Made by a program: the position numbers and the translations under genes. The notes under the pieces are model-generated. The model was not told where the DNA came from and did no database searches. It was given only the letters and a program-made list of their open reading frames with translations. A DNA stretch of 53,634 bases, from NCBI GenBank assembly GCA_030694365.1, contig JAUXYM010000029.1, forward strand, positions 1 to 53,634, given 5' to 3'. Positions 15,118 through 47,043 of this stretch are shown here, piece after piece (position 1 is the first letter of the stretch; the number at the start of each line of letters is the position of its first letter). Origin of the DNA: Nevskia sp. GTDB taxonomy: Bacteria > Pseudomonadota > Gammaproteobacteria > Nevskiales > Nevskiaceae.

Positions 15118-17142
15118 TCAGGCGGCAGCCGACTGGCTGAACAGACGCACGATCGAGCCGACATCAATGATCAGCGACACCCGGCCATCGCCGAGGATGG
15201 TCGCGCCGGAGACGCCGCGGACCCGGCGGTAGTTCGCTTCCAGGCTTTTGATTACTACCTGCTGCTGGCCAACCAGCTCGTCGATCTGCATCGCCAGCTT
15301 GCGGCCTTCGGATTCGACGATGACCACGATCGCTTCATGCGGATTGCGGCGCTGGCCCGGCAGGCCGAACCATTCGCGCAGATCCATCAGCGGCAGGTAT
15401 TCGTTGCGCACGCGGACCACGGTGCCCTGCCCGGCCATGCGCTTGACCTGCTCCGGCAGCGGCTGCAGCGATTCGACCACCGAGCCCAGCGGCAGGATGT
15501 ACACCTCGTCGCCAACGGCCACCGACATGCCATCAAGAATGGCCAGAGTCAGCGGCAGACGGATAATCACCTGGGTGCCGTTGCCCGCCGTGGAGGCCAG
15601 ATCCACCGAGCCACCGAGGGCCTGGATGTTGCGCTTGACCACATCCATGCCGACGCCGCGGCCGGAGACATCGGTGACCTGTTCGGCCGTCGAGAAGCCG
15701 GGCGCGAAGATCAGCTGCCAGACCTCGGCATCGGCCATCGCCTCGCTGCAGGCAATGCCGTTCTCCTGCGCCTTGGCGAGGATGCGGGTGCGATCCAGAC
15801 CCCGGCCGTCGTCGGCCACGGTGATGACGATGTTGCCGCCCTGATGGGCCGCGCTGAGACGAATGGTGCCGGTGGCGTCCTTGCCCTTGGCAATCCGATC
15901 GGCCGCCGTTTCAAGGCCGTGATCGAGGCTGTTGCGGACCAGGTGATTGAGCGGATCGGTGATCTTCTCGATGACGCTTTTATCGAGTTCGGTCTGCTCG
16001 CCAACGGTGACCAGACGCACCTGCTTGTTGAGTTTGGTGGCGAGGTCGCGGATCACGCGTGGGAAGCGGCTGAACACCGCTTCCATCGGCAGCATCCTTG
16101 TGGCCATCACCGCTTCCTGCAGCAGCCGCGTGTTGCGATCGAGCTGGGACAAGCCGTTGAGCAGCTTTTCGTACTGCACCGGATCGAGATCGGCGGCGCG
16201 CTGGGTCAGCATCGCCTGGGTGATCACCAGCTCGCCGACCAGATTGATCAGCGCATCGATCTTCTCGGTGCCGACTCTGATCGAACCGGCATCGCCCTGG
16301 CGCGCGGTCGCACCGGAACCCGCGTTGGCCGCTTCGGCGGGTTTCATCAGCGCCAGCGCCGGCTTGCCGGGCTCAATGCTTACCGCAGTTTCAGCAAGCA
16401 CCAGAGGATTGATGCTGACAGCAACAGCCAGCGGCTCGATGAGCAGACGGCACTCGTCCTCGACCCAGGAAAACAGTTCTTCCACTTCACCGCGCGTGGC
16501 GTCGCCATGCAGGCGCAAGGTCCAGGCGAGATAGCAGGATGTATAGCTGGTTTCGGCATCCGCCTCGGCGAACGACGGCAGGCCAGCCGTATCGACCTCG
16601 ACCTCCATCGCCCCCAGTGCATCGAGGCCGCGAATGATCCGCAAGGGATCGTTGCCGCTGCGGAACAGATCGGCCTTCGGCTCGAAACGGATCAGCCAGC
16701 CGGTTGGCGCGGCGACGATTGCCGGCTTGATGGCGACGACCACGACAGGCGTTTCTTCAGCCAGCGCCAGCGCGATTTCGGCTTGCGTCGAAGTGACTGC
16801 TGCCGCATCGAACGGCGTGCCGTCACGAGCGGCGCCGAGCAGGCCACGCAGCACATCGACCACTCTCAGCAACAGATCGACATCGGCCTTGATGACCTGG
16901 CGCTTGCCGCTGCGCATCTGGTCCAGCAGGGTTTCCACGCCGTGCGTGTAGTCGGCCACGCTGGCGAAGCCGAATGTCGCTGCACCGCCCTTGATCGAAT
17001 GGGCGGCACGAAAGATCGTGTTGATGGTTTCGGCGTCGGCCGCAGAGATGTTCAGCGCCAGCAGCGCCTGCTCCATCGCATCGAGCCCTTCGAAACTTTC
17101 CTCGAAGAAACTCTTGTGGAAGCGTTCGAGATCGATGCTCAC
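15118..17142 (-). CDS. cheA: Chemotaxis histidine kinase CheA
   Basis: A 674-residue CheA. The Hpt domain (about 1-105) carries the phospho-His in FRAAHSIKGGAATFG. After a linker, the dimerisation, HATPase (NHLVRNSLDHGLE, DDGRGLD, GRGVGMDVVK) and CheW-like regulatory domains follow in the standard order. No receiver domain is fused. It is the first gene of the cluster; the expected cheY upstream is absent, so CheY must be encoded elsewhere. Confidence 0.96.
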   Translation of the reverse strand: MSIDLERFHKSFFEESFEGLDAMEQALLALNISAADAETINTIFRAAHSIKGGAATFGFASVADYTHGVETLLDQMRSGKRQVIKADVDLLLRVVDVLRGLLGAARDGTPFDAAAVTSTQAEIALALAEETPVVVVAIKPAIVAAPTGWLIRFEPKADLFRSGNDPLRIIRGLDALGAMEVEVDTAGLPSFAEADAETSYTSCYLAWTLRLHGDATRGEVEELFSWVEDECRLLIEPLAVAVSINPLVLAETAVSIEPGKPALALMKPAEAANAGSGATARQGDAGSIRVGTEKIDALINLVGELVITQAMLTQRAADLDPVQYEKLLNGLSQLDRNTRLLQEAVMATRMLPMEAVFSRFPRVIRDLATKLNKQVRLVTVGEQTELDKSVIEKITDPLNHLVRNSLDHGLETAADRIAKGKDATGTIRLSAAHQGGNIVITVADDGRGLDRTRILAKAQENGIACSEAMADAEVWQLIFAPGFSTAEQVTDVSGRGVGMDVVKRNIQALGGSVDLASTAGNGTQVIIRLPLTLAILDGMSVAVGDEVYILPLGSVVESLQPLPEQVKRMAGQGTVVRVRNEYLPLMDLREWFGLPGQRRNPHEAIVVIVESEGRKLAMQIDELVGQQQVVIKSLEANYRRVRGVSGATILGDGRVSLIIDVGSIVRLFSQSAAA

Positions 17143-17547
17143 GCGCGTCTCCCCGACATGCCATCACAGGGGGACAAAAGGAGGTGCGTCATGGGCCTGT
17201 CTCGCTCGCTGCCGGCTGCGGTGGCGCTGGCGAAAGTGCCTCAGGCACCTTCGCAAAGCGGCTTCTGCAGGCCAACAGGCAAGCCGTGTTCCAGACCGCG
17301 GAGACGAATTCTTGACGCGCTCAAGCCAGCGCTACAGCGCATCGCAAAAGCCCGCTCCCTCGGGGAACGATCGCGGCATTCCGGCTGTGACAGTCAATCT
17401 CCTCTGAGCTGCCTACGCGGCAGTGAACGAGCTGGACGTAAATGCCATGCCGATACCCCCTACCCCTGCCGATACCCCCAGTGATACCCCCATAAAGAAA
17501 CGGCTGTCATTGGATACCCCCGGACGCTGCTGGACATCGATAGGCAC
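17143..17547. other. Intergenic region upstream of cheA, no gene seen
   Basis: About 400 bases between cheA and the tRNA-Lys terminator. It holds a hairpin at 17230-17254 (GCGAAAGTGCC with GGCACCTTCGC, one mismatch) and the GATACCCCC repeats described separately. No credible coding sequence or clear cheA promoter was found. Confidence 0.6.
17452..17521. repeat. Cluster of four GATACCCCC direct repeats
   Basis: Exact GATACCCCC occurs at 17452, 17471, 17483 and 17513, with a degenerate TACCCCT between the first two. The cluster is about 106 bases from the 3' end of tRNA-Lys, on the side where a tRNA-targeting element would insert. It may be recombinase arm sites left by a lost integrative element; this is inference. 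Confidence 0.6.
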
Positions 17548-17583
17548 AAAAAAAGCCGCAAACCATTGTTAGATAGCGGCTTT
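17548..17583 (-). terminator. Rho-independent terminator of tRNA-Lys
   Basis: On the minus strand, AAAGCCGC pairs with GCGGCTTT around a 16-base loop, and the T-run continues beyond the stem. It lies 44 bases downstream of the tRNA 3' end. Confidence 0.85.
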
Positions 17584-17626
17584 CTGTATTTCCTCGGACC
17601 GTCTTGGACTACGTTTTCGCGTCGTG

Positions 17627-45491: not shown

Positions 45492-45833
45492 ATGGCGAAG
45501 CTCGATCCCATCAGTGGCGACGAGGCCGCCCGCCACGAGCGCATTCTCGAACGCCTGCTGACCGCTGCCACCAGCATGACCGGCATCTGTGTCGGCCTGC
45601 TCGGCGCGGTCAACGCGTTCAGCCGGTCGCAGAACACCGAAACCGTCGCCGACGACGTGCTGGCGATGAACGCGCTGCTGTTCCTGGTCTGCTGCTACCT
45701 GATCGTCTGGGGCCTGCGCTCGAACAGCCGCCACCTGACGGCGCGGTTGCTGCACCTCGTCGAATACCTGTTTCTCGGGGCGATGACCCTGCTGGTGCTG
45801 ATCGGTTTCTTTGTTGTCTATTCGGTGCTGTAA
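45492..45833 (+). CDS. Small membrane protein, unknown
   Basis: A 113-residue protein with three predicted membrane segments (about 23-43, 57-75 and 89-113). It begins MAKLDPISGDEAARHERILE and ends FFVVYSVL. It starts four bases after the phosphotransferase gene, so it is probably in the same transcript. No family recognised. Confidence 0.75.
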   Translation: MAKLDPISGDEAARHERILERLLTAATSMTGICVGLLGAVNAFSRSQNTETVADDVLAMNALLFLVCCYLIVWGLRSNSRHLTARLLHLVEYLFLGAMTLLVLIGFFVVYSVL

Positions 45834-45838
45834 CCGCC

Positions 45839-45868
45839 GTCATTCCCGCGCAGGCGGGAATCCAGTTT
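45839..45868. repeat. Left 30-bp inverted repeat of the GIY-YIG cassette
   Basis: This 30-base sequence is exactly complementary to 46210-46239. Its core is itself a palindrome, ATTCCCGC-GCAG-GCGGGAAT, fitting the ATTCCC-N8-GGGAAT pattern of dRS3/REP-like repeats. Confidence 0.9.
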
Positions 45869-45890
45869 CCTTGTCGCAAACGGCAAAGCT

Positions 45891-46238
45891 ATGAACAAGG
45901 AGCCCTGTGTCTACATCCTCGTCAGCGGACGCAACGGCACCTTGTACATCGGTGTGAGCAGCCAGTTGCAGCGACGTCTGTGGCAGCATCGCGATGGCGC
46001 AGTCGCAGCATTCAGCACGAAGTACCAAACGCACAGGCTGGTCTGGTTCGAGCGCTGCGATGACATGCTAGCCGCCATCACGCGTGAGAAGCAGTTGAAG
46101 AAGTGGAACCGGATGTGGAAGCTGCGACTGATCGAGGAGCAGAACCCGGAGTGGCGGGATCTGGCCGTTGATTTGGGCTTCTCGGCGGTCGACGGCGACG
46201 CTGACGACAAAACTGGATTCCCGCCTGCGCGGGAATGA
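45891..46238 (+). CDS. GIY-YIG endonuclease-domain protein
   Basis: A 115-residue solitary GIY-YIG nuclease (UPF0213/YhbQ-like). Seen are CVYILVSGRNGTLYIGVS, the Arg-containing QLQRRLWQHR, the Glu in TREKQLKKWNR and a final NPEWRDL block. The last residues TGFPPARE and the stop codon are encoded by the right-hand inverted repeat. The whole gene is framed by perfect 30-bp inverted repeats, suggesting the nuclease and repeat are spread or maintained together. Confidence 0.9.
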   Translation: MNKEPCVYILVSGRNGTLYIGVSSQLQRRLWQHRDGAVAAFSTKYQTHRLVWFERCDDMLAAITREKQLKKWNRMWKLRLIEEQNPEWRDLAVDLGFSAVDGDADDKTGFPPARE

Positions 46239-46239
46239 C
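46210..46239. repeat. Right 30-bp inverted repeat of the GIY-YIG cassette
   Basis: Perfect reverse complement of 45839-45868. It contains the GIY-YIG gene stop (TGA 46236-46238). Confidence 0.9.
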
Positions 46240-46266
46240 ACCTAAAAAAGAGATCAATACAGAACC

Positions 46267-47043
46267 ATGGCCACCCAACTTTTTGACCTGAGCGGCAAGG
46301 TCGCGCTGATCACCGGTGCTTCACGCGGCATCGGCGAAGCCACGGCCCGCTTGCTCGCCGAGCAGGGTGCCCATGTGGTGATCTCCAGCCGCAAGCAGGA
46401 GGATCTCGATGTGGTCGCCGCCAGCATCATCGCCAACGGCGGCAAGGCCACGGCGATCGCGGCGCATCAGGGCGAATCGGCGGCGCTGAAGGCGCTGATC
46501 GGCGAGATCGAAGCGGGCCTGGGCCGGCTCGACATCCTGGTCAACAACGCGGCCACCAATCCCTACTTCGGCCATATCAGCGATACCGATATGGCTATGG
46601 TCGACAAGACCATGCAGGTCAACATCAAGGGCTACTTCGAGTTGGCCGCGCTGGCATCGAAGCTGATGAAGAAGGGTGGCGGTGGCGCGATCGTCAACAT
46701 CGCGTCGATCAATGGCGTGAAGCCCGGCATGTACCAGGGCATCTATTCGATCACCAAGGCAGCGGTGATCAACATGACGCAAGCGTTCGCCAAGGAATGC
46801 GCGATCTGGAACGTCCGCTGCAATGCCGTGCTGCCGGGGCTGACCGAAACCAAGTTCGCCGCGACCTTGACCAAGAACGAGTCGCTGATGAAAGCGGTGC
46901 TGCCGCAGATTCCGCTCGGCCGCGCAGCCCAGCCGAACGAGATCGCCCCGGCGATCCTGTTCCTCGTCTCGCCAGCATCGAGTTACGTGACCGGCACCAC
47001 CTTGACCGTCGACGGCGGCCTGATCGGCTGCGGCGGGCTCTGA
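46267..47043 (+). CDS. SDR-family oxidoreductase
   Basis: A 258-residue classical short-chain dehydrogenase/reductase. The nucleotide-binding motif is GASRGIGEAT, followed by LVNNAATNP, the catalytic Ser in VNIASINGV and YSITKAAV with Tyr and Lys. The end LTVDGGLIGCGGL is typical. It probably oxidises or reduces a hydroxyacyl or alcohol substrate in the acyl pathway suggested by the phosphotransferase and CoA ligase nearby. Confidence 0.93.
   Translation: MATQLFDLSGKVALITGASRGIGEATARLLAEQGAHVVISSRKQEDLDVVAASIIANGGKATAIAAHQGESAALKALIGEIEAGLGRLDILVNNAATNPYFGHISDTDMAMVDKTMQVNIKGYFELAALASKLMKKGGGGAIVNIASINGVKPGMYQGIYSITKAAVINMTQAFAKECAIWNVRCNAVLPGLTETKFAATLTKNESLMKAVLPQIPLGRAAQPNEIAPAILFLVSPASSYVTGTTLTVDGGLIGCGGL

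Follow-up and report, generated by a model that had tools for sequence, protein, structure and literature searches.

A GIY-YIG nuclease gene between inverted CGTC-type REPs in Nevskia sp., and two residues that follow the repeat stem

A stretch of 53,634 nucleotides from Nevskia sp. (assembly GCA_030694365.1, contig JAUXYM010000029.1), called the window below, was analysed around a small GIY-YIG nuclease gene that is enclosed by two inverted repetitive extragenic palindromes (REPs) of the CGTC type. The gene probably encodes a resident, REP-associated, sequence-specific endonuclease, and the nuclease very probably acts on its own REP. What is new here is a correspondence between residues 71 and 73 of the protein and base 6 of the repeat stem; their change in step with the repeat suggests an enzyme that may read it. 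In addition, the repeats were abundant mostly where the nuclease was present. CGTC REPs have been described as lacking an enzyme of their own, and the window nuclease is a candidate for that role.

The nuclease gene and its flanking repeats

The features of the cassette were as follows.

45838..45864, + strand: left CGTC-type REP with tag CGTC, stem ATTCCCGC/GCGGGAAT, loop GCAG and tail CCA (arm 45839-45868)
45891..46238, + strand: GIY-YIG nuclease gene of 115 codons (open reading frame list and Pfam), conserved core to about residue 91
46101..46109, + strand: codons 71-73 of the nuclease (Lys-Trp-Asn), residues 71 and 73 covarying with REP stem base 6
46214..46240, - strand: right REP in the opposite orientation, tag TGTC outside and CCA inside (arm 46210-46239)

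The GIY-YIG catalytic domain carries conserved Tyr, Tyr, Arg, Glu and Asn residues with catalytic roles. The window protein possessed both the domain (Pfam PF01541, 52.3 bits, cut-off 22.6) and the five residues, and Y8, Y19, R29, E66 and N85 were invariant in 44 aligned clade sequences. The Pfam scan of the window nuclease gave GIY-YIG alone, without the HUH/Y1 domain that defines the REP-associated tyrosine transposases (RAYTs).

The two arms were identical at 30 of 30 positions (45839-45868 vs 46210-46239), as a preliminary description of this DNA had claimed, and over a longer span of 37 nt the pair still matched at 92% identity. In both arms, GTC pointed outward, the hairpin ATTCCCGC-4 nt-GCGGGAAT followed, and CCA pointed inward. 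Folded alone as single-stranded DNA, the left REP gave -8.9 kcal/mol (z -3.5) and the right REP gave -8.7 kcal/mol (z -4.5). The assignment of the repeat to the dRS3/REP type proved right: in the available parts of the sources, dRS3 is defined as ATTCCC(N8)GGGAAT (PMC3898611) and is placed under the CGTC-1 REPs (Di Nocera 2013, PMC3733652). By the definitions in the accessible portion of the latter (PMC3733652), the window arms had the CGTC/TGTC tag, the AT-starting 8-bp stem, the 4-nt loop and the CCA tail of CGTC-1 REPs. The right arm (46217-46236) also fitted the dRS3 subtype ATTCCCRCCTRCGCGGRAAK, given as the integration pattern of the Neisseria phage Nf1 in the available text of PMC3898611.

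The right repeat copy codes for the last eight residues of the nuclease (TGFPPARE) and the stop, and the reading frame ends inside the right arm, as had been described. This repeat-built C-terminus was probably incidental and looked like read-through, because the tail lay outside the conserved alignment columns, which stop near residue 91, residues 100-115 of the predicted structure had a predicted local distance difference test score (pLDDT) below 50, and the tail was rarely shared. It was common to one of 17 relatives (L036) in an alignment (A1) whose row L047 was trimmed at its end, and was found, outside A1, in the protein of the relative G002.

The repeat was widespread in its own assembly (3.08 Mb, 89% complete), where the 26-base element had 225 sites with at most 3 mismatches and the control pattern read backward had 0. 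Within the window, the repeat core had two exact matches, and three matches with at most 3 mismatches were obtained compared with 0.39 expected from shuffles. Moreover, 24 REP pairs at most 400 bp apart were found (stretches L001-L031), all with the tags outward and the CCA tails facing each other. The spacers of 23 of these pairs were 28-36 bp long, all starting with GT and ending with AC, and the 24th pair was the second nuclease cassette. The cassette ends resembled the dimer spacers (CCAGT...AC-TGG), those of the window cassette being CCAGTTT...AAAAC-TGG; accordingly, the cassette looks like a REP dimer with a gene as its spacer.

The own genome contained three GIY-YIG genes, all close to the query and all bracketed by REPs (two by the CCCGC type, one by the CCGGC type), so the repeat-nuclease-repeat unit recurred in the genome. 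For the wider survey of named genomes, an alignment of 18 clade proteins was used as the query, and the best 80 of at least 563 confirmed stretches were kept. Comparison of the two 150-bp flanks of each gene gave a best inverted repeat with a score of at least 18 in 46 of the 80 relatives, vs 1 of 528 control positions from the same loci. The hairpin scan covered 104 genes (the best 80 of the survey plus 24 from the own genome and relatives). Of these genes, 64 had CGTC-type hairpins on both sides and 90 had one on at least one side; among 1292 control positions in the same loci, the corresponding numbers were 1 and 49. The nearest tags pointed outward on both sides in 47 of the 64 genes with two-sided hairpins. 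The same scan of GIY-YIG genes of other clades found CGTC hairpins in none of six.

Two held-out sets of 108 and 86 genes (194), from 398 and 369 genomes, were also analysed. A CGTC hairpin was present on at least one side of 54/108 and 45/86 genes, and inverted repeats scoring at least 18 flanked 102 of 194 held-out genes vs 2 of 204 controls; these included other flavours, such as GTCATTGCGAG...CAATCCAG.

Two separate arrangements were observed during the survey. In L056 (G023), an other-clade GIY-YIG gene lay inside a perfect 24-nt inverted repeat of non-CGTC type, CTTCGACAGGCTCAGCACGAACGG (1393-1416 and 1852-1875), possibly a second nuclease-repeat pairing. In L376 (Azospirillum lipoferum plasmid AZO_p3), a REP dimer stood to either side of a nuclease gene at 1183-1476, which was located in the suf cluster between sufB and sufC.

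The co-occurrence of nuclease and REPs was examined in 61 genomes (the own genome and 60 relatives), with the clade nuclease called at E ≤1e-17. It was present in 20 of the 61. At least five REPs of one or other of two flavours were found in 18 of the 20 genomes with the nuclease vs 5 of the 41 without it, and, within the genus, in 12/12 with it vs 2/6 without it. The counts of the two flavour patterns were kept separate and not summed because the patterns overlap in part.

Covariation of residues 71 and 73 with the repeat stem

A stem class could be assigned to 87 of the 104 genes, leaving 17 without a class. Residue 71 was Lys in 42 of the 44 CCCGC genes, Glu or Gln in all 15 of the CCGGC type, and Arg, Asn or Ala in all 19 of the CTGAA type; the remaining nine classed genes had smaller or mixed stem classes. 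Among the alignment columns scored, column 71 ranked first and column 73 second for association with the stem class in each of three comparisons. For CCCGC vs CCGGC, the excess information was 0.76 for column 71 and 0.44 for column 73, and the next best column reached 0.21.

The pooled test drew on all sets and used the 117 genes whose hairpin had a loop of 4 nt and a stem of 8 bp with the form A(T/C)NCCX(G/A)C, under which stem positions 1, 4, 5 and 8 cannot vary. Stem position 6 was the most associated with residue 71 (1.02 bits), followed by position 3 (0.37). Where this position was a pyrimidine, 76 of 82 genes had Lys71, and where it was a purine, none of 35 did; in the held-out sets the counts were 35/39 and 0/19, respectively. 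This pyrimidine rule was framed after all sets had been seen, and the C-vs-G part was derived from the first 104 genes. All these residue-stem association tests ignore shared ancestry.

The proposed code assigns residues 71/73 to stem base 6 as follows: Lys/Asn to C, Lys/Lys to T, Glu or Asn to G, and Ala or Ser/Lys to A. A strict four-letter rule could be scored in the 58 of 194 held-out rows (28 + 30) with the hairpin form that it addresses, the rest being unscored. It was correct in 25/28 rows of the first set and 18/30 of the second, compared with shuffled means of 12.4 and 7.7, and 0 of 20000 shuffles did as well.

Eight genomes were further scanned with one degenerate REP pattern, and the figures for five of them refer to the matches listed. 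G304, with T-type flanks, had T in 5/5 sites, and in G415, with A-type flanks, A was found at 8 of the 11 sites and T at the other 3. The sites of G005 were mostly of the G type and those of G279 mostly of the C type, and G456, with six nucleases, had A, C and T types. Outside this stem form, the nucleases of L174, L200 and L227 carried His71/Pro73 and had 9-bp stems ending in GG or GGG with loops of 5 to 6 nt, which hints at separate residue pairs for other REP classes.

The predicted structure of the window nuclease had a mean pLDDT of 75 and a predicted template modelling score (pTM) of 0.65. In this model, helix 59-71 ends at residue 71, and residue 73 occupies the turn that leads into helix 74-84; both lie just behind the conserved Glu66.

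The pair of enzyme and repeat could also be followed at one orthologous locus, where a nuclease gene lay between acyl-CoA dehydrogenase and enoyl-CoA hydratase genes in seven genomes of two families (Pfam names from L043). A tree of the two neighbour genes, in which L049 was set as the outgroup, joined L045 (CCCGC, Lys/Asn) with L060 (CCGGC, Glu/Lys) as sisters, with support of 100/98. L031, L043 and L048 (CCCGC, Lys/Asn) formed their own group (100/100), and L047 and L049 (CCGGC, Glu) fell outside both. On this tree, a minimum of two switches of the stem/residue pair was needed. In L045 and L060, enzyme and repeat differed jointly, whether by mutation in place or by replacement through recombination. 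In L045 (G003, 1489-1788), the second catalytic motif read YGDV, most aligned relatives having YVGV or YIGV; this syntenic nuclease may be decaying.

Weighing of the explanations and history of the site

From these results, a mechanism can be proposed. The nuclease with its two flanking CGTC REPs would be the full-length version of the REP dimers, which have their tags outward and a spacer of about 30 bp. It would recognise the hairpin of its own REP when the latter is single-stranded and would cut at or near the folded hairpin, with residues 71 and 73 reading the sixth of the eight base pairs in the stem. Regulation of the nuclease's own gene may be a further role of the flanking REPs. Two leading options for its service would be the control of incoming DNA, as reportedly in Neisseria, or the spread and turnover of REPs; that the nuclease helps REPs to spread is possible, and we regard it as doubtful. 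Binding, single-strand cleavage and a part in spreading or maintaining REPs are what we infer for it. The preliminary description had suggested a nuclease acting on such repeats, analogous to REP-linked transposases. Association, co-occurrence and covariation supported this well. A broader reading has, in our judgement, an even chance: that the dedicated enzymes which CGTC REPs appeared to lack are GIY-YIG nucleases, a second counterpart to the RAYT/REPIN system with unrelated chemistry, reading the REP by the short residue 71/73 code, enzyme and repeat switching flavour together in place.

Several observations weighed against a nuclease dedicated to its REP. The detector used found no CGTC hairpin on either side of 14/104, 54/108 and 41/86 clade genes. 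G007, G009, G023, G034 and G042 had REPs and no detected nuclease, with as many as 55 REPs in G007 and 45 in G009 (first pattern); G019 and G033 had the nuclease and few or no REPs. The strict rule was right in just 18/30 rows of the second held-out set, its main failure being Asn71 instead of Glu with G in 6 of 8 rows. In addition, the nuclease tree (97 columns) was poorly resolved with few firm branches, and the independent pairs of CCGGC vs CCCGC numbered six on all branches and one on the firm ones.

The weak tree leaves room for the explanation that nuclease and REP flavour covary through common descent and not through recognition. The flavours did cluster, with 9 changes of the three main stem classes on the nuclease tree compared with a shuffled mean of 30.2. 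However, other columns with the same ancestry trailed columns 71 and 73, the held-out sets agreed, and the sisters L045 and L060 differed jointly at an orthologous locus, which is the strongest answer to this objection; shared ancestry is therefore an improbable explanation. Repeats independent of the nuclease, hitting both sides by chance or serving as mere transcription terminators, would leave the covariation without reason, and two-sided hairpins were found in 1/1292 control positions and in none of six other-clade GIY-YIG genes. In favour of this view, REPs are predominantly downstream of coding regions, according to the accessible text of PMC3733652; even so, such independence is hardly credible. 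RAYTs driving these REPs, with the nuclease as a passenger, would be in line with the Y1_Tnp match seen in 47/61 genomes. But a CGTC hairpin stood on one side of 2 of the 20 Y1_Tnp genes examined in the same genomes and on both sides of none, and, in the available portion of PMC3733652, no tyrosine transposase gene of a CGTC-bearing species was flanked by CGTC units; this made the passenger role very unlikely. A filamentous-phage integrase acting on dRS3-like sites is the least probable origin of the arrangement. In Neisseria, phage Nf1 integrates at dRS3, with the subtype fitted by the right arm (PMC3898611, available part), yet the nuclease was the only gene called between the arms, no search of the genome aimed at a phage integrase having been made, and the repeats bracketed the same nuclease clade in many lineages.

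The history of the window site bears on mobility. The two neighbour genes were as follows.

45492..45833, + strand: left neighbour, a small protein of unknown function with one Pfam match below cut-off, in the same place in G002 and G010
46267..47043, + strand: right neighbour, a short-chain dehydrogenase/reductase (Pfam), 33 bp after the left neighbour in G010

The left neighbour gene was held by 5 of the 21 genomes searched, the own genome included. In the window genome (G000) and in G002, the cassette lay between the same two genes. In G010 these genes were 33 bp apart and the cassette was missing, and in G008 and G005 no dehydrogenase start occurred in the 600 bp read beyond the left neighbour. 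The preliminary description had held that its reading would be refuted by a repeat absent elsewhere in the genome together with relatives that keep the gene at this locus and are free of the repeats; the repeat was abundant, and G002 had both gene and repeats. Identity around the site was about 95% between G002 and G010, and 88% between G000 and each. Because G000 is thus the more distant of the three, one loss in G010 explains the pattern more simply than two separate gains would. The CGTCATCCC that remains in G010 may be either a scar or a chance occurrence.

The same description had also proposed a mobile cassette and a search for empty sites in relatives. One such site with both neighbours (G010) was found, and it fitted loss better than insertion, so mobility by empty sites was rejected as an identification; with relatives keeping the gene at shared loci, a mobile cassette is weakly supported. 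A stronger version is that the nuclease mobilises the REPs and itself as an autonomous homing- or transposon-like element, the REP dimers being its short non-autonomous copies. The shared end structure of dimers and cassette, the 225 REP sites in the own genome, a REP dimer present elsewhere in G000 and G002 and missing at the orthologous place in G010, and the presence or absence of the cassette between the same genes all favour this. On the other hand, deletion also yields presence and absence, the loci were common to relatives, and the two empty sites that were read showed no duplication of the target. Moreover, the near-identical copies at different sites by which insertion sequences are recognised were not found for the window gene, the other two of the three nucleases in the 89%-complete assembly being 52% and 57% identical to it. 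We therefore consider this element a tenable but less probable explanation. The window gene looks like a resident with occasional loss and not a jumping cassette. RAYTs are likewise resident genes with occasional loss.

Other identities were also searched. A defence system was rejected, with weak and partial PADLOC matches alone (best E 0.0068). No NCBIfam match to the window protein was obtained at E 0.001; among 44 clade members, TIGR01453 was the commonest weak match (39/44, best E 1e-05). Foldseek gave no match at E ≤0.001. Among viral contigs, a search for close relatives only gave eight candidate stretches and no confirmed one, and ten phage records were found, at 33-35% identity. Elsewhere in the window, 17401-17428 was a borderline Rfam CRISPR-DR4 match (35.3 bits, cut-off 35), probably by chance, and no direct repeats of at least 20 nt were found around it in 16800-17620. 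In the plasmid collection, NZ_CP119140.1 was a chromosome-sized (2.17-Mb) Neisseria gonorrhoeae 'plasmid', a label that is likely a collection error.

Comparison with known systems

CGTC REPs occur in five phyla, include the dRS3 of Neisseria and 'apparently lack a dedicated transposase', in the words of the accessible part of PMC3733652. No link of a GIY-YIG nuclease to REPs or dRS3 was found in the literature searched, including the available portions of PMC9465073, PMC9778887, PMC10745880, PMC8263058, PMC6006769 and PMC3898611, nor did it show a connection with the whole class of CGTC REPs or the dependence of residues 71 and 73 on the stem. We do not claim the GIY-YIG-REP link as unpublished, and the CGTC REP link and the residue relation may already be in the Ssn study considered below. 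With a nuclease clade that these repeats often bracket, and with residues that follow the repeat's sequence, the question of a dedicated enzyme can be put to a direct test that needs just one small protein and some oligonucleotides. Should the relation of the residues to the stem be true, the repeat family on which a given nuclease acts could be predicted from sequence.

The window REPs resembled the described CGTC REPs, including dRS3 and RPE-6/RPE-4 (PMC3733652, available part), in the tag, the AT-starting 8-bp stem, the 4-nt loop, the CCA tail and the dimers. The difference was that Di Nocera 2013 examined transposase genes and, in the accessible text (PMC3733652), named no GIY-YIG nuclease.

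UPF0213 GIY-YIG proteins and Slx1 were also counted among the closest known systems. The Ssn study (Nature Communications 2025) reportedly described site-specific GIY-YIG nucleases that cut single strands, first in Neisseria meningitidis. Their site is said to be a repeat in hundreds of copies, their interaction with it to affect natural transformation, and each homologue to have a cognate sequence of its own. A relative from Neisseria gonorrhoeae, 57.6% identical over 92 residues and in the same group, sat amid dRS3 repeats; it may be the published Ssn. Since this relative sits among dRS3, the window gene was filed provisionally with the Ssn kind and would most likely belong to that family. 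Like Ssn, it encodes a small stand-alone GIY-YIG protein. Its flanking repeat, which may be the cognate one, had 225 genome sites. Single-strand cleavage is reported for Ssn, whereas for the window protein it is a prediction.

Compared with RAYT/REPIN systems, the arrangement was similar in that one gene is flanked by its partner REP and, as is said of those systems, many REP dimers lie elsewhere. It differed in fold and chemistry, RAYTs being tyrosine transposases, and in the tag, which is GTAG in the REPs of RAYTs and GTC in those of the window.
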